A DNA stretch of 31,503 bases from a virus, in the IMG/VR virus record IMGVR_UViG_3300030090_001532, positions 1 to 31,503 of that record, one strand, 5' to 3'. Position numbers and translations under genes: made by a program. The notes below the pieces were generated by a model. It ran no database searches. It was not told the origin of the DNA and saw nothing but the letters and a program-made list of their open reading frames with translations. This document shows, in pieces, positions 6,226 through 29,885 of this stretch. Each line of letters opens with the position of its first letter. The first letter of the stretch is position 1.

Positions 6226-6809
6226 ATGCCTGTTCTAAAAGTTAAGTTTATTCTTTCTCCTGCACCGATCATATCAGGAACTGCATGAGTAGATTTCATT
6301 TGACTATGACCATCAAAAATCAATACATCACCATGATTTAAAATATAAGTATCTTCTGTTTTTATAAAATTTTCTGATACTGTATCTATCTCACTTGTGT
6401 TTGTTTTTACTTTAACTGCGTTTTGATAATGTCTCCATGTAAAAACTCTTGGAGTACCAAAAGATATAGACACAACTAAGTCGTCTAGTGTTGGTACGGT
6501 ATCTGAATGATGAGGTATACCTTTGCCGTCTGTGCCGTAGTAACCACATAAACAAAAAGAAAACTCAACATCCATCTTATATTCAGTTGACAACATATGC
6601 TCTGTTAAAGTTTTTATTCTAAAAATACGATGGTTATCTGACCATGGACGTCCTTTATAGTTTTTGCCTGCGTATGCAAATGTATTACCGTATCCTGCTG
6701 TTTTTCTACCTAAAACTTTATGACCTTTAAACTCTCTTATAGTTGGCTCATCCCATTCAGTAATTATTGGGTTTTGGTTTTTAAAATACTCTGGTTTATA
6801 ATCTATCAT
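6222..6809 (-). CDS. AlkB-like 2-oxoglutarate/Fe(II) dioxygenase
   Basis: A 195-residue non-haem iron oxygenase. The iron triad is H101-x-D103 in IPHHSDT and a distal histidine in STHAVP (His175). The 2-oxoglutarate and substrate-binding R-x5-R is RINLTFR (Arg186 to Arg192), the spacing characteristic of AlkB. AlkB proteins remove alkyl lesions from DNA or RNA bases. In this operon it could repair genome damage or oxidise a modified base. It overlaps the helicase downstream and the primase upstream by four bases each. Confidence 0.85.
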   Translation of the reverse strand: MIDYKPEYFKNQNPIITEWDEPTIREFKGHKVLGRKTAGYGNTFAYAGKNYKGRPWSDNHRIFRIKTLTEHMLSTEYKMDVEFSFCLCGYYGTDGKGIPHHSDTVPTLDDLVVSISFGTPRVFTWRHYQNAVKVKTNTSEIDTVSENFIKTEDTYILNHGDVLIFDGHSQMKSTHAVPDMIGAGERINLTFRTGI

Positions 6810-8329
6810 ATCTTCATATCATTAAACTCTGGTAAGTCGTGGGGCTCACTTTGAGTTATAAATTCGTTTATATGCCATACATTTACACCTTTGCCTTTTA
6901 TATTAAAAAAGTATGGCTCTCCCTCTAATTGTTTTAGTTTAGATGTAAGTTTGTTTCTTTGGTATTCTTTAAAATTATTTCTATGTAAATAATCCATCAA
7001 ATCAGCTAATCTAAAATATGTTTTACCTTTGTTAGTCCAAGGTTTATGTAATAATAACTCATCTCTTTCTCTAGCAGGTCGTTCAGTACAAAAAGCTTCT
7101 AGTAACTCCATAAAGTGTCCTTCAGTAGAACTTTCGGCAGGAACTTCTACTATAGTAATAACATCTAATAATTGTTGTATTATTTGTCTCCACACATTGT
7201 CTTTAACTTTAGGTGGTATTTTATTAAGGGCTTCCATACATTTACGTTGGAATCTATTTTGATTTAATAAATCATCTGTTTCTAATTCTAATCGACCACC
7301 CTCTACATCTAAAAACCATATAGGTGGATCACTGTCTTGTTTTGTTAAATTACTAAATAAAGGTGTTCCACCGTTAGCACCAATACCGTATTTTCTAGTT
7401 CTACATAAAGGACTATTACAATGACTAGCTATGGGTTGGTCGTTACACTTATAAAAATAATCTTTACGTTTAAGTTGTTTAATAACTGTTAAAACTTCTT
7501 GTGCACCTAAAGGTGGTTGCATGTATTGTATATTTATATCTTCTAACCTTTTTTCCCAATCGTCTGCAAACTTTTTTCTTAAAAACACACCCACATTAAA
7601 CAAACCTGAATTACGTGTGCCCTTCGGAAAACCCTGCACTACTAAGTGTTGTATGCATGGAGGTGCTTGATCTAACCATTCTTGTTGTTCATTAAGGGGA
7701 CTAGCTTCTAGTTGTTCTAAAAGTTTTGGTGTTATCTGTATTTTATCTATATATTCTATAAACTCGTTAGGCGTAAGTGCTTGCCCTTCTTCACCATAAG
7801 CGTATCTTGTTGAGTTTTCTCCGCCAAAATAAGGCATATTTAATGTGCTACCCCTGTCGCCCCTATCTAATAATAGTTTAGTTTGTTTAGGAAATATTTC
7901 TGCTTGACCATAACCTATGGCTGCCGCTACTTGTCTAAGTTTTCTTTGTAACATAGAGGCAGGGATAGGCTCTACTAAGAAAATAAATATATGAGCACCA
8001 CCGCTTTTGCTTCTACAAAGCACAAGTGGGAGTTGTTGTTGAGCAAGTCGGATAGCAAGACTTTTTAAATCTAATTGATACTCATCAACATCGATGGCTC
8101 CCCACACACACTCGTTATCTTCATTTATAGGTACTATCCCTAAACTTTGTTGTCCGTTAAGATGTTTAGTCCATAAGTCTATAACATCTTTTTCTTCTAA
8201 ATTTTTAGAAATGGTAATATTTTTACCACTAGCTTTACCATCTTCCCGTGTTTCATTGGTAGATGTAAACGTTCCGTATGCAGAACGTAGTCCTGCATAC
8301 CGTTTTGCGAACGTTTCAGCTAACGACAT
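6806..8329 (-). CDS. Archaeo-eukaryotic-type primase (AEP, TOTE/PrimPol-like)
   Basis: A 507-residue primase. The catalytic D-x-D is in GAIDVDEY (Asp80, Asp82) and the second motif is SGGAHIFIF (s-x-H, His113), both AEP hallmarks. A downstream region has Cys225 in PPCIQHL and a Cys295/His303/Cys304/Cys309 cluster, the zinc-binding arrangement seen in primases of the TOTE conflict-system type. The last 130 residues, after about 370, look like a winged-helix DNA-binding region. It should make primers for the phage polymerase and replaces a DnaG/T7-type primase here. It overlaps the AlkB-like gene by four bases and follows the DNA-binding-type gene by two. Confidence 0.85.
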   Translation of the reverse strand: MSLAETFAKRYAGLRSAYGTFTSTNETREDGKASGKNITISKNLEEKDVIDLWTKHLNGQQSLGIVPINEDNECVWGAIDVDEYQLDLKSLAIRLAQQQLPLVLCRSKSGGAHIFIFLVEPIPASMLQRKLRQVAAAIGYGQAEIFPKQTKLLLDRGDRGSTLNMPYFGGENSTRYAYGEEGQALTPNEFIEYIDKIQITPKLLEQLEASPLNEQQEWLDQAPPCIQHLVVQGFPKGTRNSGLFNVGVFLRKKFADDWEKRLEDINIQYMQPPLGAQEVLTVIKQLKRKDYFYKCNDQPIASHCNSPLCRTRKYGIGANGGTPLFSNLTKQDSDPPIWFLDVEGGRLELETDDLLNQNRFQRKCMEALNKIPPKVKDNVWRQIIQQLLDVITIVEVPAESSTEGHFMELLEAFCTERPARERDELLLHKPWTNKGKTYFRLADLMDYLHRNNFKEYQRNKLTSKLKQLEGEPYFFNIKGKGVNVWHINEFITQSEPHDLPEFNDMKI

Positions 8330-19253: not shown

Positions 19254-20403
19254 ATACTCTATTGCCTCTATTATTTAACTTTTCTAGTGCAGCTATGCCT
19301 TTATTATGGTTACCACCACCTACTAAATCTACCGTAGCTTTAGATAACATAAACTCACCATCACTAGCCATTACAGGAATTAAATCATCTTTAGGTCCTC
19401 CTGGACCGTCAAGTTCTCCACCGCCTAACATAGGTTTAAACATTTTTCTATCTAAAACGCCACCGCCTTCCATACCTTTCAATAAAGACATTTGATATTC
19501 TCTATCTTTATTAGATATCATTTTACCCATTTGCGTAGTAGGTTGTGCTAAAAGATTAGCTATATCTAAATCTGACAAAGTTGCACCTTCTAAAAGTTGT
19601 GAATAGTACTCTCTATCTTTATCCGATATTCTTCTACCTTGTTGAGTGTTTGCCATAGCTAACATTTCAATAACTTGATTCATGTCAGCATCCGATAATG
19701 TTTTACCTGTAGCACCGCCATTATTCATACCTATAGGTTTAAATTGTAATCTTCTTCTATTTGCATTACCTGCAGGCGGTAAAGTTCTAGTACTTACTCT
19801 ACTCATACCAGGATCATCATCGTCATCAAACAGTTTCATAAGTGTAGTTGAACCTATACTTCCTAAACCTTCTGTTACAGCTTCTTGAACCTTTGGGTCT
19901 AACTCTGCAAATTTTGCTAAAAATTCTTCGTAACGAGATAGTTCAGGCATAGGTACATCTATATCTGCAGGATCAAGATTCATACTTAAATCAGGCATAT
20001 AGTTATTAAGCATACTAAGTATAGGTATATCGTTTATTAAAGATGCTAAACCAGCAAAACTTCCACCATTTGACATTTTTCTAACTAAACCACCTACATA
20101 CATTCCTGGAATACCAAATTCTTGCAAATCTTCTAAACTAACACCTGCTTTTTCTAATTCAGCCATAATCATATCTTGATCTGCTTGCGAAGGTGTAGTA
20201 AAGTCTGTACTTGTAAACTCATCAAAATCTTGTACAGTACTTCCTGTTATATCTTGTATTTCTGTTTCAGGTCCAGGAGTAAGTGATGGTGCTGTACCCG
20301 TACCTATTTGTTTAGGCATTTTAGGGTCACCTATAATCTTTTTACTAATAAGATTTGTTCCTACGCCTATAGCTATAGCTGTAGCGATACTAGCCATAGT
20401 CAT
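19246..20403 (-). CDS. Virion protein with repeated SD-x-D motifs (385 aa)
   Basis: A 385-residue protein. The N-terminus (MTMASIATAIAIGVGTNLIS) is hydrophobic. A serial motif follows in residues about 230-310: GKTLSDAD, GRRISDKDREYYSQLLEG, ATLSDLD and GKMISNKDREYQMSLLKG. The C-terminus, GPKDDLIPVMASDGEFMLSK with a following VGGGNHNKG stretch, matches a widespread ending of phage tail and virion proteins (D-x-I-P-x-M-x-S-x-G-E-F). An assembly or tail-associated role is inferred. ATG at 20403 is used; a second ATG two codons on is equally possible. Confidence 0.6.
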   Translation of the reverse strand: MTMASIATAIAIGVGTNLISKKIIGDPKMPKQIGTGTAPSLTPGPETEIQDITGSTVQDFDEFTSTDFTTPSQADQDMIMAELEKAGVSLEDLQEFGIPGMYVGGLVRKMSNGGSFAGLASLINDIPILSMLNNYMPDLSMNLDPADIDVPMPELSRYEEFLAKFAELDPKVQEAVTEGLGSIGSTTLMKLFDDDDDPGMSRVSTRTLPPAGNANRRRLQFKPIGMNNGGATGKTLSDADMNQVIEMLAMANTQQGRRISDKDREYYSQLLEGATLSDLDIANLLAQPTTQMGKMISNKDREYQMSLLKGMEGGGVLDRKMFKPMLGGGELDGPGGPKDDLIPVMASDGEFMLSKATVDLVGGGNHNKGIAALEKLNNRGNRVYG

Positions 20404-20948
20404 AGTACGTTCTCCATTATTTTATCTATTTGTTTTATATCAAAACCTTCTAACTTTAGTTCTGCAAAATCATCAACGACTACTTCATTAACAATATCAT
20501 CTACATTTAAACAATCTGTTTTATGTACTGTTATAAAAGTACATTCTTCGTGTACATACAATACTCTTTTTGTTCCTGCTTCTGTAATACCGTGATGTGG
20601 TGCTTCTATATGGTCTACGCCTTTATCACTATAAATAGATACTTTTCCTGATAAAATAAAATAAGGATGATTTTTTGCGTGGATTTTAGTAGCAACTAAT
20701 AATCCTGCTGGCATAACAATTTTACGTATATATTGACCGTCTGCGAAATCGTGCGTTACTGCTCCTTCTGTTTCGCCTCTAATTTGTTTATTTAAGTTTT
20801 GTTTATTGTTTTCTACGCAATGCTGTGCAATAGCTACTTCGAACTCTTTAATTTTATTTTGAAATTGTTTTTTATTTTCCCTATAATCTAAAAACTCACA
20901 TGCATCTTGGTATGTAAGTTTTGTATTATTTCTTAAAGATAAAGCCAT
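20400..20948 (-). CDS. Cupin-like protein
   Basis: A 182-residue protein with a single beta-barrel cupin core at about residues 70-145. The metal-site-like histidines are H90 and H94 in KIHAKNHPYFILSGKV, with a further histidine in VHKTDC (His142). The loop GVDHIEAPHHGITEAGTKR gives additional histidines. N- and C-terminal helices surround the barrel. Cupins bind metals or small ligands; here the substrate is unknown and a structural or virion role is possible. It opens the virion block, behind a 93-base leader, and its stop overlaps the next gene by four bases. Confidence 0.65.
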   Translation of the reverse strand: MALSLRNNTKLTYQDACEFLDYRENKKQFQNKIKEFEVAIAQHCVENNKQNLNKQIRGETEGAVTHDFADGQYIRKIVMPAGLLVATKIHAKNHPYFILSGKVSIYSDKGVDHIEAPHHGITEAGTKRVLYVHEECTFITVHKTDCLNVDDIVNEVVVDDFAELKLEGFDIKQIDKIMENVL

Positions 20949-21041: not shown

Positions 21042-22778
21042 TCAAACTGTATAGATTTTTAAAGGTTTTTCTTTACCTTTTACTTTAATAGGTTTTAATG
21101 ATTGAAGCGTATATCCACAATATTTTTCTGTTTCTTCGCCTATAAGTATATCTACACCTGCTTCTTTTGTAGCTGATTCTAACCTTGCTGCCGTATTTAC
21201 AGCGTCGCCGATAGCCGAATAATCAAACCTAGTATCACTACCCATATTACCTATAACAGCTTCTCCAGTATTAACACCAACACCTATAGCTACGCCGATA
21301 TCTGCTGCTATTATGTTTTCTTGTATCTCTTTCGCACAATCTACAGCTATATTCTCATGATGTTGTAAATCAAGTGGTGCATTGAATATAGCCATCATTG
21401 CATCACCTATATATTTATCAACCATACCTCCATATTTTTTAACTGCATCAGACTGTATAGTAAGTGCTTTATTCATTATTTTTGTTACTTCTTCAGGTTC
21501 TAACGTTTCTGATAGTGCAGTAAAGCCTCGAACATCTGTAAATAGAAAAGTACAACGTCTTTTTTCACCACCTAATTTCAGTAAGTCTGGGTCTTGTTGT
21601 AAACGTTTTACCTGTCTAGGGTCTAGATAATGTTCGAATTGTTTTTTAATTTGTAGCCGTAACTTATATTGTTCTCTAAATCGTAGGTAAAACGCTACAC
21701 TTGCAGTTATAAAACCACTTACTAAAGCCCATGTAACGTCTATTAAAAAACCTTGACCTATCGTATAAACGCCGTAAACGCCCGTAGCCGTTATTAAAGC
21801 TAAAGTAATACCTAAGCCCCAATAAATACCTAAGCGTACTATAGCGATCCATATAAGGCTTATTAAAACTAAAACTATACTAAGCTCTACAACTAAAGCG
21901 TAATCAGGTATATACGGGCTATTTTGTATAAGAATACTTTCTGCAAGTGCTGTTTGTATTTTATGAGGTTCAACAAGTCCAACAGGCGTAGCGATTTGCG
22001 GCATTACACCATTAGCTGTAACACCAACAATAACAAATTTATTATTAACTTCCATTTCTTGTAAATCTGTTTGTGGTGTATTTACCCAACTAATCCATTT
22101 ACGACCTAAACTATCTGTTTTAATTGGTGGTATACCTTGTATGGATATTTCTTCTATACCGTTTTCGTTAGTTTTTATAATATAAGTTTTTATACCAAAC
22201 AATGATTTATATATTTGTGTACCAAAACTAGGTATCCATTCGTTGTTAGGTGTTTTAACTAATAAAGGCATTCTTCTTACTAGCTGATCAACATCAGTAG
22301 GAGCTATGGCTAAACCCTGCAGAACTTCATCGTAAAATGAATGGTTAGCCTTAACTCCTGAACTAATAATACCACCTACACTATTGCCTAGAACAACTGT
22401 TCCAGGAGAAGCAGGATAAATACCTTTACCGTCTTCGAACATCGCAATAACAGAAGGAGCATAACCTAACGACCTAGCTAGATCATTATCGCCACCAAAT
22501 CTATCGGCTTGTGGAAAAGATATAGCCCAACCTACACCTATCGCACCTTTAGCTAAAAGCTCCATGTTTATATCAGCTAAACGCTTACGAGGAAAAGGAT
22601 AACCACCTTCACGCTCTACATCTTCTTCAGTAATATTTAGAATTACAAAATTACCACTAGGCTCTGGTGTTTGTATAAACGCATCATAAGTTTTTAATTT
22701 AAGTATTTCTAACGGTGTGGTTTGGAATATTAGAGGAAGTGTTAATAAAACAGTAAGTGCTAAATATATTTTTTTCAT
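21042..22778 (-). CDS. CHASE2-domain class III adenylate/guanylate cyclase
   Basis: A 578-residue membrane enzyme that makes a cyclic nucleotide from NTP. A signal-anchor (residues 4-20) precedes an extracytoplasmic CHASE2-type sensor (about 25-290), three transmembrane helices (about 293-315, 320-340 and 345-366) and a cytoplasmic catalytic domain (about 405-560). Catalytic residues are present: metal-binding Asp415 (FTDVRGF) and Asp459 (IGDAMMA), base-specifying Lys455, Ser521 in FDYSAIGDAVN, and transition-state Asn528 and Arg532 (NTAARLE). The K/S pair favours ATP, hence cAMP. It overlaps the FecR gene by four bases; such pairs are familiar in bacteria. In a phage lysis/virion region it is unusual. 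The enzyme call is firm; product and signal are inferred. Confidence 0.92.
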   Translation of the reverse strand: MKKIYLALTVLLTLPLIFQTTPLEILKLKTYDAFIQTPEPSGNFVILNITEEDVEREGGYPFPRKRLADINMELLAKGAIGVGWAISFPQADRFGGDNDLARSLGYAPSVIAMFEDGKGIYPASPGTVVLGNSVGGIISSGVKANHSFYDEVLQGLAIAPTDVDQLVRRMPLLVKTPNNEWIPSFGTQIYKSLFGIKTYIIKTNENGIEEISIQGIPPIKTDSLGRKWISWVNTPQTDLQEMEVNNKFVIVGVTANGVMPQIATPVGLVEPHKIQTALAESILIQNSPYIPDYALVVELSIVLVLISLIWIAIVRLGIYWGLGITLALITATGVYGVYTIGQGFLIDVTWALVSGFITASVAFYLRFREQYKLRLQIKKQFEHYLDPRQVKRLQQDPDLLKLGGEKRRCTFLFTDVRGFTALSETLEPEEVTKIMNKALTIQSDAVKKYGGMVDKYIGDAMMAIFNAPLDLQHHENIAVDCAKEIQENIIAADIGVAIGVGVNTGEAVIGNMGSDTRFDYSAIGDAVNTAARLESATKEAGVDILIGEETEKYCGYTLQSLKPIKVKGKEKPLKIYTV

Positions 22779-23857
22779 CCGCTACCTTGTGTAATAGTTA
22801 TAACAGAGTCGCTACCGCCGTTTATCTTAATTATATTAGATACTCCGTCTTGTATCAAAATAAGCGTATAAGCGTTACCAGAATTTAAATCAAGCTGTAA
22901 ATTTTGGTTTACCTTTCTTTGTAAACTAATTACTTGACCTGCAATTATTGTTGTTATTTGTGTTTGAGTATCTTGTCCAAAATTAGTGCCTGTAAGGTTT
23001 ATACTAGTTGCTAAACCTAGTTGTTCTTCTTCTTCCTCTACCCCTAAAGCGTCTATAACATCAAGTAAATCTTCTAAAAAATTAACATCTAAATAATTTA
23101 TATCTAGTTCTGTAAACTCTAAATTACCTTCTTCTAAAAAATCTTCAGCTAGATAATCAATATCTAAATCATTAAAATCTAAAACACTATCGTTTTGTGT
23201 TGTGCTTGTTTCTTCTTCTTGTATAGTTTCTTCTTTAGGTGGTGTAACTATTAGCATATTATCTATAATATCTAAAGATAAATCTAAAATTACTGGTTTT
23301 GTTGGTGCTGCTTCGAAAACACTTACTGTCGTGGCTTGATAGGGTTTATTAAGTAAAACGGAGCCCATAGCCGTTACTACTTCTATTTCTCCACTAGATA
23401 AACCGAAAGGGTCTGGTAGAAGTATTATTAAACTTCTACCTAACTCGTCTACCGTAGCAGTAAAATCAGTTCCACGAATTGCAATATTTGCTGTTGGTGT
23501 ACTAAGTTTTATATTTTGTTTATCTATACGTTGTAAATTACCTGTTATAAACCTAGCTGTACCTAAAGCAAAATTAAGGGACATTTTAGATTTACTAGGA
23601 TCAGGGTCGTATATATATTCGTCTATTACAAGTTGTGAATGTTCTGTAAGCCTTACAACAGAATCATCAAGGAATTTAATACCTAAACGACCATTACTCG
23701 TTATGGCTTGATCATTGCTTTGTATTGCAAAATCTAACTCTGCACTATACGGCTGATCACGAACTATCTGAGCGTTACCCGATAATTCAGCAATATCACC
23801 TATATCAACAACTAGTGCTTGTACCGCCGTCGTCTTGAACCACACAGACAGTACCAT
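22775..23857 (-). CDS. FecR-domain extracytoplasmic protein
   Basis: From ATG 23857 this is 360 residues. The open frame continues upstream to 23983, but that part lies over the curlin-like gene. MVLSVWFKTTAVQA resembles a short signal peptide; a TTG at 23890 would give a longer, better one. A FecR-type beta domain covers about residues 18-140, with LNFALGTARFITGNL and TPTANIAIRGTDF as its landmarks. An acidic region then carries a tandem 20-residue repeat (F-x-x-L-D-I-x-Y-L units, 60-base period near 23070-23180), followed by a beta-rich tail ending ITQGSG. FecR domains sense or transmit envelope signals; here the partner is probably the CHASE2 cyclase. Start uncertain. Confidence 0.8.
   Translation of the reverse strand: MVLSVWFKTTAVQALVVDIGDIAELSGNAQIVRDQPYSAELDFAIQSNDQAITSNGRLGIKFLDDSVVRLTEHSQLVIDEYIYDPDPSKSKMSLNFALGTARFITGNLQRIDKQNIKLSTPTANIAIRGTDFTATVDELGRSLIILLPDPFGLSSGEIEVVTAMGSVLLNKPYQATTVSVFEAAPTKPVILDLSLDIIDNMLIVTPPKEETIQEEETSTTQNDSVLDFNDLDIDYLAEDFLEEGNLEFTELDINYLDVNFLEDLLDVIDALGVEEEEEQLGLATSINLTGTNFGQDTQTQITTIIAGQVISLQRKVNQNLQLDLNSGNAYTLILIQDGVSNIIKINGGSDSVITITQGSG
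23070..23180 (-). repeat. 60-base tandem duplication inside the FecR gene
   Basis: Two imperfect copies with a 60-base period (about 23071-23120 and 23131-23180) share TCTTCTAAAAAAT on the plus strand and encode two acidic F-x-x-L-D-I-x-Y-L-x-x-x-F-L-E units. The copies differ at several positions, so the duplication is not recent. Confidence 0.6.
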
Positions 23858-24509
23858 TAGAACCAGTAGATGTGATTTTGAGCCAATCAAGTGCCAAAGT
23901 TGAAGATTGCGTAATATCGAATGTTCTGCTATTACCTGTTTGGTCAAGATAGAAATAACCTCCCGCATAACCACTTCCTTCAAAATTTACTGTGTTGCTA
24001 TCTCCATCTACGTCAACGTAACTTGTACCTGTATCGTAATTAATATCAAAATCAAAAACGTTGCTATCGCCTTGAATAATCCAATCTAGGTCTGTAGTAC
24101 TTGCTAACGCTGTAGTAGCTAAATCTAAAGTAAATGTATTAGAACTACCTGTTACATCTACGTTTAGATCAGAATTATCTGCACCGTAGGTATTTGTAGG
24201 ATCAACTTGTATAGTAAAAGTATTGCTATCACCATCAAACTCAAAAAAGCCTGTTAAACTATCTGCTAAAATATCACCTAAAAATTTGTTGCTATCACCT
24301 ATTTGGTTAATATCCAAAGTTAAAGAATCGCCATCTAAATCTAAAGCTGTTAAAGTTCCAGCTACAGAATTTAGACCACCAATAATATTAGATGAACCAA
24401 GTTGTTCTAAATCTATGTTAGCAGTTGCTCCTGATTGATCAACATATATTTCATTGTCTGCTATAATCAGAAAAGGTAATACTAAAATAAAACTAATTAA
24501 TCTATTCAT
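23805..24509 (-). CDS. Secreted curlin-like repeat protein
   Basis: A 234-residue exported protein from ATG 24509, which has a GGGAG site; the frame opens at 24536. The signal peptide is MNRLISFILVLPFLIIA, cleaved before DNEIYVDQ. The mature part has about eight beta-repeats centred on Q-x-G-x-S-N or D-G-D-S-N (EQLGSSN, NQIGDSN, DGDSNTF, TGSSNTF, QGDSNVF, DGDSNTV, QTGNSRTF). They alternate short strands and turns like CsgA/CsgB, but with aspartate in place of many glutamines. It ends with two cysteines (TVCVV and TSTSC). Placed right after CsgG, it is the obvious substrate. Amyloid formation is inferred; a non-amyloid beta-solenoid adhesin is the alternative. Confidence 0.8.
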   Translation of the reverse strand: MNRLISFILVLPFLIIADNEIYVDQSGATANIDLEQLGSSNIIGGLNSVAGTLTALDLDGDSLTLDINQIGDSNKFLGDILADSLTGFFEFDGDSNTFTIQVDPTNTYGADNSDLNVDVTGSSNTFTLDLATTALASTTDLDWIIQGDSNVFDFDINYDTGTSYVDVDGDSNTVNFEGSGYAGGYFYLDQTGNSRTFDITQSSTLALDWLKITSTGSNGTVCVVQDDGGTSTSC

Positions 24510-25374
24510 ATTTTTTCTCCCAATATTTTCTATCATACCCTATTTTTATTATTTCCAAAACAGCATCTTCAATCGCTCTTTGTAAAGCTATTGTTACTGA
24601 ATCATTTTCTACGTCACCACCTTCTAATTCTACTAATTCTGTTCCTGCTTCTATAAATTTAAAAACGTCTTGTGATTTTCCGTAACTATAAATTTGTTTA
24701 CTAACTAAAACATCTATCAACACTTCTCCTGTAGCTACACTAACCATACGTAAAGATAAAGTTACGCTATCTATCCTGTATTGTTTACTTGCTCCTAGAC
24801 CTAGATATCTAGCTCCAACACCACCGCTTTTAATATTAGTGTCATAACCAACTACAGCTCCTTCCATAAGAACGCCTGCAAATAATAAAGGCATTAAAGG
24901 TTTTGCATCATCTTCATCTTGTCTAGCAGAACGTATTAATTGTCTTTCTTTAGTTAGGTTATCTAAACCAACTCTTTCCGCTACTCTAAAAAAGTTTCCA
25001 TCAGCTGTATGTTTTAATGCACGAATAAGAAGATGATTTGGTGCTTGGGTTATAGCACTACTAAATAAAGCAAATTCACTATTGCTTTTACGTTGACCTG
25101 TTTGATCAGTAAATGCTGTTGGGTAAACAGCAACAACTATGGGGTTTTTAGGAACTGCTACTTCTAATAATTGTTGTGATTGTATTTCTAAAACTTTAGG
25201 TAAGTTTTCTATGTAAGGCTCTCTTTCTACACACTTTCTATAAACCGTGCCTTCTAAAACTGTTTTATATTTAAGACATTCGCCTTTTTGTTCAAACTGT
25301 TGTAGTACGGGAGCTACGCTACAACTAGAAAGAAAAATCACCAACAGGCAACTGTATCGTTGTAATATTTCCAT
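24502..25374 (-). CDS. csgG: Curli secretion channel lipoprotein CsgG
   Basis: A 290-residue homologue of CsgG, the nonameric outer-membrane channel that exports curli subunits. The signal peptide ends in a lipobox LSSC (Cys18). Recognisable blocks are VVAVYPTAFTDQTGQRK (80-96), LDNLTKERQLIRSARQ (137-152), MEGAVVGYDTNIKSGGVGAR (170-189), YLGLGASKQYRID (190-202), TGEVL and FKFIEAGTELVELEGG. Compared with E. coli there are about 25 extra residues before the core, with two cysteines (C33, C48). The constriction loop also differs: the E. coli Y-P-A-S-N-F region reads N-S-E-F-A-L-F. It overlaps CsgF by 50 bases and the curlin-like gene by eight. The homology is very clear. Confidence 0.95.
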   Translation of the reverse strand: MEILQRYSCLLVIFLSSCSVAPVLQQFEQKGECLKYKTVLEGTVYRKCVEREPYIENLPKVLEIQSQQLLEVAVPKNPIVVAVYPTAFTDQTGQRKSNSEFALFSSAITQAPNHLLIRALKHTADGNFFRVAERVGLDNLTKERQLIRSARQDEDDAKPLMPLLFAGVLMEGAVVGYDTNIKSGGVGARYLGLGASKQYRIDSVTLSLRMVSVATGEVLIDVLVSKQIYSYGKSQDVFKFIEAGTELVELEGGDVENDSVTIALQRAIEDAVLEIIKIGYDRKYWEKKYE

Positions 25375-25831
25375 CTGGGTCTGTTATTGTTAAAGTTATA
25401 ATTCCATCTACAATACTGTATTCAATAGTATTACCTTCTAATTCTAATGTACCACTATCACTTGGAGTTTCACCGAATAAATTTTCTACAAGTTGTCTAG
25501 ATAACTGTGCATAAATACGGCTCTCAAGATTTCTAATAAATCTAGCAAGTGTTGTGTTTTCTTTATCTCTTTCTATTTCATCTTGTAAAGCTTTAATTTC
25601 TGCTTTAATAGTCATTTTTCTATTAAACTCTTGGTTTTCAATAGTTAAATAATGTGATGACGTATTAACACCACTAAAGCTAGGATTTTTAAATTTGAAA
25701 GTTATGGTATCTGCTTTTACATTAATTACAAAAACACCTAAAAACAGAATAACACCTATTAACGCTATTATTCTTAGTAACAACTGTTTTTCTGCTTCTT
25801 CTTTTTCTATTTTAATCTTTTCTTTGGTCAT
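25325..25831 (-). CDS. csgF: Curli assembly factor CsgF
   Basis: A 168-residue CsgF homologue. After a long N-region (1-17) and a hydrophobic segment (18-38), cleavage at VKA before DTITF leaves TITFKFKNPSFSG, matching the E. coli N-terminus TMTFQFRNPNFGG, the part that plugs into the CsgG channel. The end, TIEYSIVDGIITLTITDPDG with ITTIQLPVGDF, matches the CsgF C-terminal strands. The middle (about 70-118) is a charged helix unlike the E. coli protein. CsgF couples subunit export to nucleation. The start overlaps the upstream membrane/coiled-coil gene by 20 bases. No CsgE gene or CsgB-type nucleator was found in the window. Confidence 0.9.
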   Translation of the reverse strand: MTKEKIKIEKEEAEKQLLLRIIALIGVILFLGVFVINVKADTITFKFKNPSFSGVNTSSHYLTIENQEFNRKMTIKAEIKALQDEIERDKENTTLARFIRNLESRIYAQLSRQLVENLFGETPSDSGTLELEGNTIEYSIVDGIITLTITDPDGNITTIQLPVGDFSF

Positions 25832-26162
25832 CTCTATCCGCCTTTGCTAATCTATCAGACTGCATAAGTTGTGGAACACCTAGTATAGTCTTTAAAAGTG
25901 TGTCTTGCCTAATTATTTCATTATCAACAGAACGAACTCTATCTATAAGTGCTACTAATATACCGTGTTGTGAATCTAGTTTTTGTCCTAATCTTTCTTC
26001 TATTTCAGATATTTGAGCAGATACTTTTTCATCAAGAACATCTACTTTGGTTTCCATACCGTCAATTATTTTATTTATAAGTTTCCAAATAAATAAACCT
26101 AACCCTAGTGCTGCTGCTATTGGAAAACCTACTTCATTAATTAAGGTTACTACTGCTTCCAT
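25812..26162 (-). CDS. Membrane/coiled-coil protein, holin-like candidate
   Basis: A 116-residue protein with one transmembrane helix near the N-terminus (about 10-30, VGFPIAAALGLGLFIWKLI) and a long coiled coil of heptads (about 35-90), ending in a charged tail. The form resembles the YvrJ/phage membrane-coil proteins sometimes assigned as holins or lysis accessories. The cytoplasmic lysozyme encoded upstream needs a holin, and this is one of several candidates. The start overlaps the nuclease stop by one base. Confidence 0.55.
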   Translation of the reverse strand: MEAVVTLINEVGFPIAAALGLGLFIWKLINKIIDGMETKVDVLDEKVSAQISEIEERLGQKLDSQHGILVALIDRVRSVDNEIIRQDTLLKTILGVPQLMQSDRLAKADRDDQRKD

Positions 26163-26545: not shown

Positions 26546-26845
26546 TTAACATTTCCACCTTTTACGTGCTTGACGTAATCTTGAATTAGGATTTTTTGCT
26601 GCTTTTGGAAACTTTTTCATCTGTCCTGCACTTCTAGCACAGTAAGACTTTCTTCTTTTTGCTGCTTTACTTCCTTTTTTAACTTTACCTGTAACTGCTG
26701 TTTTTAATTTACTTCCAGGATTTTTTCTCCTGTAAGCTTTTACGCCTTTCTTAGTCATACCTGCTCCACTTTTCGTAGGTCGGTAATTCGCTCCTTTACC
26801 TTTGGTGGTGCGTCTTATAGACTTTTCTTTGCGTTTTTTAGCCAT
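26546..26845 (-). CDS. Very basic small protein (99 aa, DUF6321-like)
   Basis: A 99-residue lysine/arginine-rich protein. The central block GAGMTKKGVKAYRRKNPGSK (about 27-46), followed by KGSKAAKRRKSYCARSAGQM (about 58-77), recalls a conserved phage family that I remember as DUF6321. It ends in a tryptophan and cysteine (RKRWKC). Such charge suggests binding to DNA or RNA, for instance DNA condensation or packaging. It shares one base with the 66-residue gene upstream. Confidence 0.7.
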   Translation of the reverse strand: MAKKRKEKSIRRTTKGKGANYRPTKSGAGMTKKGVKAYRRKNPGSKLKTAVTGKVKKGSKAAKRRKSYCARSAGQMKKFPKAAKNPNSRLRQARKRWKC

Positions 26846-27045
26846 TATTTTTTCTTGCTTCTCTTTTTAGGTTTTTTAGCTGTTTTAGCAGAACGTTTAA
26901 AAGCTGCAGCAGTAGGTGCACCTTTAGCTCCTTTCTTACGCATTTTTCTGCCTTCTTTACGTTTTTTATTTATATTGTAATAAAGACCTTTTTTAGCTCG
27001 TCTGCCGTCTTTAGTGGTGTGATATTTACTTTTAGCTCTAGCCAT
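26845..27045 (-). CDS. Very basic small protein (66 aa)
   Basis: A 66-residue protein, about half of it lysine or arginine, with a conserved-looking core RAKKGLYYNINKKRKEGRKM (about 15-34), then GAKGAPTAAAFKRSAKTA and an all-basic end. The K-G-L-Y-Y-N-I-x-K-K-R pattern is familiar from marine phage genomes, but I know no function. An AGGAGAT site, located inside the previous gene's stop region, precedes the ATG. Confidence 0.75.
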   Translation of the reverse strand: MARAKSKYHTTKDGRRAKKGLYYNINKKRKEGRKMRKKGAKGAPTAAAFKRSAKTAKKPKKRSKKK

Positions 27046-27144: not shown

Positions 27145-27234
27145 TTATTCTCCTTTATTATGTAATTTATCAGCGTAGTTTTGCCAAGATTTTTCTATAA
27201 ATCTATCAATCCATGCTAATAATTTTTGTTTAAT
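27145..27234 (-). CDS. Candidate 29-aa gene with an ATT start
   Basis: An open frame of 29 codons, KQKLLAWIDRFIEKSWQNYA and onward, fills the gap between the lysozyme and the 31-residue gene. It has no ATG, GTG or TTG; an in-frame TAG lies four codons before the ATT. An excellent GGAGG site lies five bases before the ATT at 27234. The peptide is an amphipathic helix rich in aromatic and charged residues, unlike random noise. ATT starts are rare, so a sequencing or assembly error in an ATG is equally possible. Confidence 0.45.
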   Translation of the reverse strand: MKQKLLAWIDRFIEKSWQNYADKLHNKGE

Positions 27235-27679
27235 CTTGCCCTCCTAAGAGAACTCTATCTCTAAGTCTAGTCGCTCTTGGTCCTACTTGTGTAGCCCAAC
27301 GACTATCCATCATTTCAACTGCAGCAGTTTCCCAATTATGTTCTTCTAATGCGGTTAAAAACTTTTTAAATTTTAATAACCTAGTTATACCTAAATTAAA
27401 ACCCATGTTTGCTAAAACTCTTTTTATATCTTCTGGTAGGTGTATCCACCATGATAAATTTCTATCTAATTCTTTTGTTACTGTATTAATATCGTTTTCA
27501 AAACATTTTTTAATTCTGTCGTTAGAAACAGGCGTACCTACTTCTTTTCCGTGTTCTGGGTCTGTTTCTAGAATAAGATGACCTATACCAAAAGTTGGGT
27601 AGCCTAAATGATCTAAGTATATTTTATCAACACACCCCTCATCAAAAGTAAGTTCTTCTCTTAATTTATCAATGTTCAT
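27230..27679 (-). CDS. T4-type lysozyme (endolysin)
   Basis: A 149-residue glycoside hydrolase of family 24, which cleaves peptidoglycan between N-acetylmuramic acid and N-acetylglucosamine. The catalytic triad has the exact T4 spacing: Glu14 (FDEG), Asp23 (YLDHLGYPT) and Thr29, followed by FGIGHL. The C-terminal MGFNLGITRLLKFKKF and DSRWATQVGPRATRLRDR match the T4 lysozyme core. There is no signal peptide, so release needs a holin. ATG 27679 is chosen because it overlaps the preceding stop as ATGA; the longer frame up to 27796 lies over that gene and has no family match. Confidence 0.93.
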   Translation of the reverse strand: MNIDKLREELTFDEGCVDKIYLDHLGYPTFGIGHLILETDPEHGKEVGTPVSNDRIKKCFENDINTVTKELDRNLSWWIHLPEDIKRVLANMGFNLGITRLLKFKKFLTALEEHNWETAAVEMMDSRWATQVGPRATRLRDRVLLGGQD

Positions 27680-28002
27680 AATATTGGCACCGTTGTTGCT
27701 CCATTGGTTTTTATGCTTACTTTCCCCAAAGCCATGTTGCCTTGTACTCCTTTTTCTTCCCCAACGTATAAGTCTATCCATTTTATTCCATTCCATAATT
27801 GTAATTGATCCGTACTTAAATTATAAATTATATCTCCTTTATTAAATAAATTTAAATTTCTTTGGTTTTCATTTACAGTTTGCGTTGCGTCTATATCTTT
27901 ACTGCCTAAAGATAGCTCTAATATTCTTACCAATCTATTAAATATTGCAGGATCAAGAGGTCCTACTGCAGTAGGAAGTTTAGTCTCTAAAATTTTTGTC
28001 AT
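27676..28002 (-). CDS. Probable virion-associated protein (108 aa)
   Basis: A 108-residue protein beginning MTKILETKLPTAVGPLDPAI, with a helix near 17-35 and a beta-rich centre (GDIIYNLSTDQLQLWNGIKW, about 56-75) typical of small tail or fibre domains. It begins in a TAATG overlap with the 627-residue virion gene, which supports a role in the same structure. I recognise no named family. Confidence 0.6.
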   Translation of the reverse strand: MTKILETKLPTAVGPLDPAIFNRLVRILELSLGSKDIDATQTVNENQRNLNLFNKGDIIYNLSTDQLQLWNGIKWIDLYVGEEKGVQGNMALGKVSIKTNGATTVPIL

Positions 28003-29885
28003 TATCTTTTACCATCAGGCTTTATATCTAAACGTGTAGCCCCTAACCTAAAAGCCATACCTGTTACAGCTGAATTATCGTCGTTAGATTGAACTCTTAA
28101 AACAATCTGTCTTGCTCTTAAACGTGTATCTATTTTAGTTGTATTTGAAAAACAATTAGCGGTGGTTGCTGTGCTTAAATCTTGTCCTGGAAAATCTCTT
28201 TTCTTTAAAACAAAATCTAATTGTTGTCCTGAAGACCCAGTCGAACCATCACCTATAAATTTAACGTCAGGGATTAGTCTACTTATTGCTGTAAAATTTT
28301 CTCCCGCAGGGTCTATATCGAAATCACTAGATTCTATAAATACGTTTTGCATAGCTGTTCCATCGTCGTCGTAACCAACTTCATGACTATATAATGTACC
28401 TGTGTTTGAAGTTGTATACGTTGCTAAAGGTTTATCTAGTATACCTTCATCTAACCAAGCTGTTCTTGAGAGTTCTCCTATAGACCATACATTTTCTAGA
28501 TAATTATAAACAACATATTTATTTGGACTTGTTTGATCTTGTGTGCAATAAAACCAACCAACTTCATTAAAAGCTTTATTTGAAAAAGCAGTTATTTGGA
28601 ATGTTTGAGTTTCATCTATATTGTCAAAAACATGAGCTTCTACACTACATGGTAATGTTTGTACTGATCCAGTATAATTGTAAAAACCTTTTTTATCCAT
28701 CCAAAAAACACCTTTAGGCGTATTTACCATAGCGTTTGGTCCTGCTAAACCAACACCCTCATTTACTAAATTTAAACCAAACGTAAAGGGCTGTCCTATA
28801 AAACTTAAAGAGTAAAGTGCTGTATCTGTCCATATAAGAGTTTCTTGTCTTGCTCGTATACCACCTATAATAGAAGAACCCGCTGACAATCTTAAAGACC
28901 CTGCTGTATTAGTTGCTAGTGGCTCCCATTCTGTAACACTTTCTTGATCACTAAACGCTATAAGCATAGGATCAATCGTGCCTGTTCTACTAGAGTTTTC
29001 TATGGGGTCTGCACCTAAACAAAGTACGTGTCTATCTACATCACTAACTAAAACCTGTATAGCTTTTGTAGGAGCTAAATTTGCACCTGCAAGATCAGAT
29101 AAAGCTACTGCTCTACTTGTTAAACCACCACTTGTGTCCCAGTAATAAACTCCACCGTTACGCACGTTTAATATTAAATCTTCACCAAAATTATCATGTG
29201 ACCATGTTCTAAGTTGATCCGAACTAGCTAACGCAGTTACACTTCCAAAAGTTCCAACACCCCAACTTCCTGCACCCCAACCAGAAGAAGGTACGTATAC
29301 ATCTAAACCAACGTTAATTTGATAAACACCGTCAACACCAGAACCTCCATTACTTGTGTCGCTAGCATTAGCAGTAACTGTATTTCCATCAGTATCTTTT
29401 GCACTAAAGGTGTATGTGTTTGTTGTTACAGAAGTTATTTGATATTCTTGATTTAAAACTGCAGCTGTAATATTACCACCTAAACTAACAGCGTCGCTAA
29501 AAGTAACAAAATCATTTTGTACAGCACCATGACTATTGTCGGTAGCTGTAATTTCTGAACTACCATTAGTAGCAGCGAAAGTAACACCATTGGTAGTTGT
29601 TTTCCTTATAGGTGTTATATCGTAATAAGATATTCCTTGTAATACGTAATATTTTTGCGTAGCACCTAAACCAATATATTTAGTGCTATCTAATGCAACC
29701 CATGCGTGAAGTCCTCTACCTTTAGAACTAAAGGTATTATTAGAATATTTTTGCCAACCACCAATTTTTTCAGGTAAACCTTTACGAAAACGTACTAAAT
29801 TTGCATCAAACCAACCACCTTCATTAGAATAGGTCGTATTTTCTTTATTTATTCCTGGTTTGAATAAAAATTTTTGTAAAGGCAC
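28002..29885 (-). CDS. Large beta-rich virion protein (tail/stabilisation type)
   Basis: A 627-residue beta-rich protein. The N-terminus MPLQKFLFKPGINKENTTYS, followed by W-F-D-A-N-L-V-R-F-R-K-G-L-P-E-K, is a start that I recall from a widespread marine phage virion family, sometimes annotated as a P22 gp10-like stabilisation or tail protein. Residues about 85-190 form an Ig-like, threonine- and serine-rich insertion. The rest looks like a propeller or repeated strand fold (SVEAHVFDNIDETQTF near 405-420). It lies immediately upstream of lysis genes. A particle component is likely; the exact place is inferred. Confidence 0.75.
   Translation of the reverse strand: MPLQKFLFKPGINKENTTYSNEGGWFDANLVRFRKGLPEKIGGWQKYSNNTFSSKGRGLHAWVALDSTKYIGLGATQKYYVLQGISYYDITPIRKTTTNGVTFAATNGSSEITATDNSHGAVQNDFVTFSDAVSLGGNITAAVLNQEYQITSVTTNTYTFSAKDTDGNTVTANASDTSNGGSGVDGVYQINVGLDVYVPSSGWGAGSWGVGTFGSVTALASSDQLRTWSHDNFGEDLILNVRNGGVYYWDTSGGLTSRAVALSDLAGANLAPTKAIQVLVSDVDRHVLCLGADPIENSSRTGTIDPMLIAFSDQESVTEWEPLATNTAGSLRLSAGSSIIGGIRARQETLIWTDTALYSLSFIGQPFTFGLNLVNEGVGLAGPNAMVNTPKGVFWMDKKGFYNYTGSVQTLPCSVEAHVFDNIDETQTFQITAFSNKAFNEVGWFYCTQDQTSPNKYVVYNYLENVWSIGELSRTAWLDEGILDKPLATYTTSNTGTLYSHEVGYDDDGTAMQNVFIESSDFDIDPAGENFTAISRLIPDVKFIGDGSTGSSGQQLDFVLKKRDFPGQDLSTATTANCFSNTTKIDTRLRARQIVLRVQSNDDNSAVTGMAFRLGATRLDIKPDGKR

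Follow-up and report, generated by a model that had tools for sequence, protein, structure and literature searches.

What does a phage gain by carrying the genes of a bacterial fibre-secretion system, and how much of that system does it carry? The question is raised by the IMG/VR virus record IMGVR_UViG_3300030090_001532, whose 31,503 bases, themselves a fragment, form the window analysed here. An earlier reading of these bases (the original prediction) had placed the curli proteins CsgF and CsgG and a repeat protein resembling curlin, the curli fibre subunit, at 23805-25831. All three were found there, on the minus strand, and the view that a phage carries a curli-type channel, its coupling factor and a candidate fibre subunit together was right. 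The unit is, however, larger than the "minimal" three genes proposed, being a five- to seven-gene module that includes FecR-domain and adenylate cyclase genes on the same strand. We consider it probable that this module is a phage copy of an alphaproteobacterial-type curli (type VIII) secretion system, in which a fibre exporter is joined to a periplasmic FecR/CHASE2 sensor that acts through cyclic AMP (cAMP). In kind the system is already known, because the module was published in 2022, together with its fibre gene, for pelagiphages of the HTVC023P type (PMC9599517).

Gene content of the module

In transcription order, the minus strand of positions 21042-26162 encodes a 116-residue membrane protein (the small upstream protein, UP), CsgF, CsgG, the curlin-like protein, a FecR-domain protein and a CHASE2 adenylate cyclase. 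Adjoining genes share 20 to 86 bases, apart from the FecR/cyclase junction, which shares 4. CsgF (25325..25831) matches PF10614 with E 5.2e-20 over the whole profile (4-132 of 132), and CsgG (24502..25374), the outer-membrane pore, matches PF03783 with E 6.5e-48; the homology first noted by eye is confirmed by these profile searches, and on sequence grounds we regard the identity of both proteins as secure. CsgG bears a lipobox, LSSC, as read from its sequence, and a profile of seven phage CsgG proteins matches solved CsgG chains (E 3.5e-64); the phage CsgF profile gave no match to solved chains at E <= 0.001. CsgE, which the original prediction had not seen either, gave no PF10627 match in any of 30 related phage records and genomes, the window itself being a fragment, and the E. 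coli control was positive. The same search found no CsgE in two Caulobacteraceae genomes described below, and CsgE is reported to be absent from alphaproteobacterial curli systems (PMC3521004), so its presence is not required for membership of the curli family.

The candidate substrate is a protein of 243 residues encoded at 23805..24536, whose signal peptide probably starts at an internal ATG at 24509. Residues 21-243 contain six exact GxSN units, a number reached in 0 of 20,000 shuffles, and eight GxxN units, reached in 3 of 20,000; the "about eight G-x-S-N" repeats once counted here therefore stand as a repeat spacing beyond that of shuffled sequence and as eight units of the looser motif, but not as eight exact ones. 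The curlin repeat profile PF07012 is matched at E <= 0.1 by 28 of 52 aligned relatives (best 6.2e-10), and the columns that are invariant over the 52 sequences are mostly Q, G and N positions of the repeat. For these two reasons the curlin assignment, which is weaker for the window protein taken alone, can be called secure for the family as judged from its sequences. AlphaFold2 returned an all-beta model (predicted local distance difference test score, pLDDT, 85.6; predicted template modelling score, pTM, 0.81), and the protein, far from appearing unstructured, is predicted with good confidence to be a beta-solenoid. In a further fold comparison the top matches were SufB/SufD beta-helices, with Z up to 17.4; behind them, the E. 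coli CsgA fibril 8enq aligned over 110 of 111 residues with Z 11.5, a root-mean-square deviation (rmsd) of 8.9 and 20% identity. Ratios of non-synonymous to synonymous substitution (dN/dS) of 0.07-0.14 in seven comparisons, where the four more distant have dS > 1 and are near saturation, indicate that the curlin gene is under purifying selection; pairwise values over five module genes span 0.06-0.28. Curlins of the window type end in a conserved cysteine pair, the last cysteine being at least 90% conserved over 43 sequences, and the first curlin of one Caulobacteraceae operon (L101 8859-9539) likewise ends in two cysteines; a disulfide cap at the curlin C-terminus is possible.

The FecR-domain protein, the cyclase and UP

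The gene for the exported FecR-domain protein (22775..23890; PF04773, E 5.5e-10) overlaps the curlin gene by 86 bases if it begins, as its relatives suggest, at a TTG at 23890; the open reading frame list gives 22775-23983. The FecR domain is the only Pfam match in the protein, with no anti-sigma domain found, and residues 57-216 of the structural model align with the cell-surface signalling domain of PupR (Z 15.5 and rmsd 2.4 over 137 residues). A periplasmic FecR domain is thus shared with the iron-signalling anti-sigma regulators, whereas their N-terminal cytoplasmic anti-sigma domain was not found in the module protein, in whose model an N-terminal helix (residues 4-20) runs straight into the FecR domain. 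There follow a disordered acidic stretch and a predicted beta segment at residues 301-370 (pLDDT 82-89; pTM of the whole model 0.50). Two labels in print are corrected by this work, namely "iron regulator" for the present protein and "histidine kinase" for a gene considered below.

The last 45 residues of the FecR protein (22775..22912) resemble curlin repeats. A curlin-unit profile, built on related sequences from units chosen by their GxxN motif, gave these tails a median of 7.1 bits (n=124), where their shuffled versions reached 1.0; the corresponding medians were at most 0.7 in eight other segments of module proteins, 3.9 in curlin C-termini and 14.0 in a mid-curlin segment. Standard tests count against the likeness: the Pfam curlin model matched 1 of 27 tails, at E 0.057, and hhalign gave tail and curlin a probability of 3.5%. 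A regular expression, written once the tails had been seen, fitted 107 of 119 of them and 2% of shuffled sequences, and in a fold search with the C-terminal segment the match list was filled by the FecR domain. As the standard tests are weak and only the custom profile separates the tail, we hold its curlin-repeat-like nature to be likely but unproven.

The last gene (21042..22778) encodes a CHASE2-domain adenylate/guanylate cyclase (PF05226, E 1.1e-25; PF00211, E 8.3e-21). Among 112 aligned cyclases, both metal-binding Asp residues are kept in 112, Lys and Arg in 110 each, Asn in 91 and the base-specific Asp in 85, at what we take to be the catalytic positions of class III adenylate cyclases; on this alignment the module cyclases retain the catalytic residues of that class. 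In seven loci of the window type (L019, L050, L064, L071, L082, L085, L087) an extra ~0.4-1.6 kb lies between FecR and cyclase. A biofilm-regulating operon of Burkholderia, in which a FecR gene stands beside a CHASE2 sensor gene with histidine kinase output (PMC5192318), is a precedent for the pair.

At the other end of the module, UP (25812..26162) matches phrog_18771 (E 7e-16) and, less strongly, the holin family phrog_4898 (E 4.3e-4); its sequence reads as one N-terminal hydrophobic helix followed by a coiled coil. UP is probably the "histidine kinase" of PMC9599517, to judge from position and copy number. If so, the name would not hold, as no kinase domain was found in the window UP or in any of nine homologues drawn from five further loci. 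Seven T4-like loci (L132, L145, L147, L148, L163, L173, L186) carry paired UP genes that run against the csg genes and lie outside them, still beside the module, which argues that the functional tie between UP and module is real. Of 80 UP loci kept, 18 were already in our set and 62 were new; CsgF or CsgG is present in 52 of the latter, and in nine of the ten others the sequence stops no more than 443 bases from UP. A strict bond to the module is rejected by locus L222, where ~1.1 kb after UP holds another open frame and no CsgF.

Distribution in phages and cellular counterparts

Scans of IMG/VR for CsgG returned 13, at least 585 and at least 581 relatives, and the best 80 from each of the last two were analysed. 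The resulting set comprises 172 viral loci, one further locus (L017) having been left out because its contig is that of L004; the census profiles drew on seven to nine sequences from these phages, and FecR and cyclase were counted anywhere in a locus, the cyclase of L139 lying upstream. CsgF occurs in 154/154 CsgG loci with at least 600 bases upstream, a curlin gene after CsgG in 164/164 where 300 or more downstream bases are available, FecR in 138/138 with at least 1.5 kb of sequence and the cyclase in 83/83 with at least 5.5 kb; UP is found in 126 of 138 loci with at least 1.5 kb upstream. The original prediction had supposed that channel, coupling factor and fibre subunit together would be much rarer than CsgG alone, and had suggested a search for the same gene order and for relatives that keep CsgG while losing the repeat protein. 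The IMG/VR census rules out such rarity, and every testable viral locus with CsgG has kept the repeat protein. Where the downstream sequence reaches at least 5.5 kb, a second curlin gene separates two types of locus: profiles detect one in 27 of 31 loci of the T4-like type and in none of 52 of the window type. Among 50,697 annotated phage records, phage-type CsgG, FecR and UP appear only in two HTVC008M entries and four Melnitz isolates, the UP matches thus numbering 6. A seventh CsgG match in these records, OR851715.1 (L280), comes from an unverified "Salmonella phage" fragment of 1.5 kb that looks like host DNA. The GenBank record of Melnitz annotates two curlin-associated repeat proteins (L016 5761-6480 and 7530-8555), both of which our profiles find, contrary to PMC9004378, where csgA and csgB are said to be missing.

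The SNF2-type helicase of the window has its top four matches in the phage collection in 023Pt_psg01 (57.6%), DSL-LC04 (54.1%), HTVC027P (51.6%) and HTVC023P (47.5%), and the protein encoded at 28002-29885 is nearest to DSL-LC04 (39.6%) and Roseobacter phages, with HTVC027P next. On these best matches the window phage is likely to be of the HTVC023P type, and its host would be SAR11. A search for CsgG in 79 Pelagibacter-family genomes gave three matches, two of them on phage-type contigs. Elsewhere in the window, 6806-8329 in the replication region encodes a TOTE-type archaeo-eukaryotic primase domain (PF22548, E 2.9e-13), and 26546-27045 a tandem pair of small Lys/Arg-rich, possibly DNA-binding proteins, of which 26546-26845 matches DUF6321.

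Cellular counterparts are few. CsgG patterns run against 84,980 species genomes gave 10 loci, all outside the 172 viral loci. Two contigs from metagenome-assembled genomes (MAGs) of Caulobacteraceae (L101, L102) bear the order csgF-csgG-curlin-curlin-fecR-CHASE2 cyclase, flanked by frames that, read by eye, are glycosyltransferase-like and peptidase-like. In the family to which one of the two MAGs belongs, CsgF occurs in 12 of 99 genomes; FecR or cyclase was found near csgF, within 5-16 kb, in none of 10 other genomes of the family, and of 289 genomes in the class that MAG alone has a FecR match at E <= 1e-40. A csg operon with FecR and cyclase is, on these two counts, rare in cells. Of the remaining cellular loci, L106 has a CsgG-like gene only, and L103 and L104 end too early for the cyclase to be judged. 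The CsgG tree places the two Caulobacteraceae proteins with those of phages (98/89), which favours their kinship, although a tree holding all Caulobacteraceae CsgG together is not rejected (approximately unbiased test, p 0.08), L106 and the outgroup forming very long branches. A phage origin of the operon sits less well with its guanine-cytosine (GC) content of ~52%, which is near that of the MAG contigs rather than the 33% of the window module.

Proposed function and relation to known systems

Computation establishes what the genes are and that their order is conserved, the substrate's kinship to curlin and its fold, the purifying selection and the retained cyclase residues; expression in infection, secretion, fibre formation, sensing and a benefit to the phage are inferred. 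During infection the co-oriented, overlapping genes would be made together, CsgG forming an outer-membrane pore and CsgF capping it. The curlin-like protein would be exported by Sec, pass unfolded through the pore, fold as a beta-solenoid and stack into fibres on the surface of the infected cell. In the periplasm, the FecR-domain protein would adjoin the CHASE2 cyclase, and its curlin-like tail might sense curlin traffic and set cAMP output. Since a disordered acidic linker joins FecR domain and tail, the protein could dock onto, cap or nucleate periplasmic curlin and signal to the cyclase, with which it is translationally coupled, that curlin is being exported or has jammed, and we offer this curlin-aware sensor as a speculative and rather doubtful elaboration. 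As to the benefit, we prefer an adhesive coat, which would either hold fresh hosts close to the bursting cell or protect the infected one; any single benefit is at best a tentative choice, the coat, glue, block to other phages and lysis aid of the original prediction included, and PMC9599517 proposes aggregation, superinfection defence or import.

Several results weigh against a sensor-linked fibre exporter. The window repeat protein itself scores 17.6 bits against PF07012, below the curated cut-off of 20.7, and Foldseek with its model gave no PDB match at E <= 0.001. No separate second curlin that might act as nucleator is present in the window, as the original prediction had also observed of a CsgB-type protein. 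Potential receivers of a cAMP signal are scarce: no more than 4 of 79 Pelagibacter-family genomes, one of which is the MAG G003, gave a cyclic-nucleotide-binding domain, and none turned up in 28 related phage records, of which some are fragments. The MAG contig L097 carries csgF-csgG-curlin-fecR with no cyclase in the ~6 kb after FecR. Finally, cultures of Melnitz are reported not to clump (PMC9004378). This last report would suit a CsgG-CsgF pore that works without a fibre, as a leak in the outer membrane that aids uptake or times lysis, with the repeat protein as plug or accessory; a lysis role has been proposed for Melnitz (PMC9004378). The holin-like match of UP, the lysozyme gene that flanks the module at 27230-27796 and the lack of a CsgE gate point the same way. 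Yet CsgF and curlin are kept throughout the census and the curlin gene is under purifying selection, and a pore without substrate is disfavoured because curlin is present in every testable viral locus; moreover, the curli systems of Alphaproteobacteria and of the two Caulobacteraceae genomes lack CsgE too. We therefore think a fibreless pore unlikely.

Somewhat better placed, though still doubtful, is superinfection exclusion, one of the functions put forward in PMC9599517, whereby the exported protein would coat the infected cell and block adsorption of competing phages; a coat of this kind would not need the sensor-cyclase pair. The position of the window curlin, between a tail-fibre/adhesin-like gene (20400-20948, with a PHROG tail match) that flanks the module and the small proteins near the lysozyme gene, might instead suggest that the repeat protein is a virion fibre or decoration encoded near virion genes. 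The same module order stands beside different genes in the T4-like phages HTVC008M and Melnitz, always with secretion genes that a virion protein would not need, and we judge a virion role very improbable. If the preferred reading of a secreted, sensor-linked fibre is correct, ocean phages would give amyloid secretion to hosts without it, and so change how these cells stick, sink and meet new hosts; the module would amount to a small curli system that has all its genes and a sensor of its own. Were the tail to sense curlin, phage and Caulobacteraceae curli would have in common a loop that feeds amyloid export back to cAMP, one that none of the papers found describes. With the FecR tail and the Caulobacteraceae operon, the regulation and origin of the module become open to test; these two, together with the UP that has no kinase domain and the scarcity of cyclic-nucleotide-binding domains, are what the present analysis adds. 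No later experimental work on phage curli was found among the matches listed in our literature search.

Among known systems, E. coli curli share with the window the CsgG and CsgF families and curlin-type repeats; the CsgA/CsgB pair, CsgC, CsgD and CsgE were not found in the window, where FecR and a CHASE2 cyclase are added, two genes that canonical bacterial curli operons lack according to PMC9599517. The Caulobacteraceae operon is closer, with the same gene order, no CsgE and a FecR protein ending in a similar tail, and differs in having two curlin genes before FecR, no UP that could be found and a higher GC content. HTVC008M (gp014-gp019) and Melnitz carry CsgF, CsgG, curlin, FecR-like protein and cyclase in order, gp016 being noted in its record as "curlin minor subunit CsgB"; unlike the window phage they have T4-like genomes of ~141-147 kb, with a second, longer curlin-repeat gene between FecR and cyclase. 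CsgF and CsgG had earlier been described in T4-like pelagiphages, where "sibling capture" was proposed (PMC7029224). Closest of all is the module that HTVC023P-type and T4-like pelagiphages carry according to PMC9599517, which describes the full set in HTVC023P-type podophages and reports a global distribution and expression in ocean metatranscriptomes. The window differs in having no separate second curlin gene, and the histidine kinase said to precede the published module was not found there; shared are the phage type, by helicase, one or two short genes before csgF, the absence of CsgE, and the order CsgF-CsgG-CsgA/B-FecR-adenylate cyclase on one strand.

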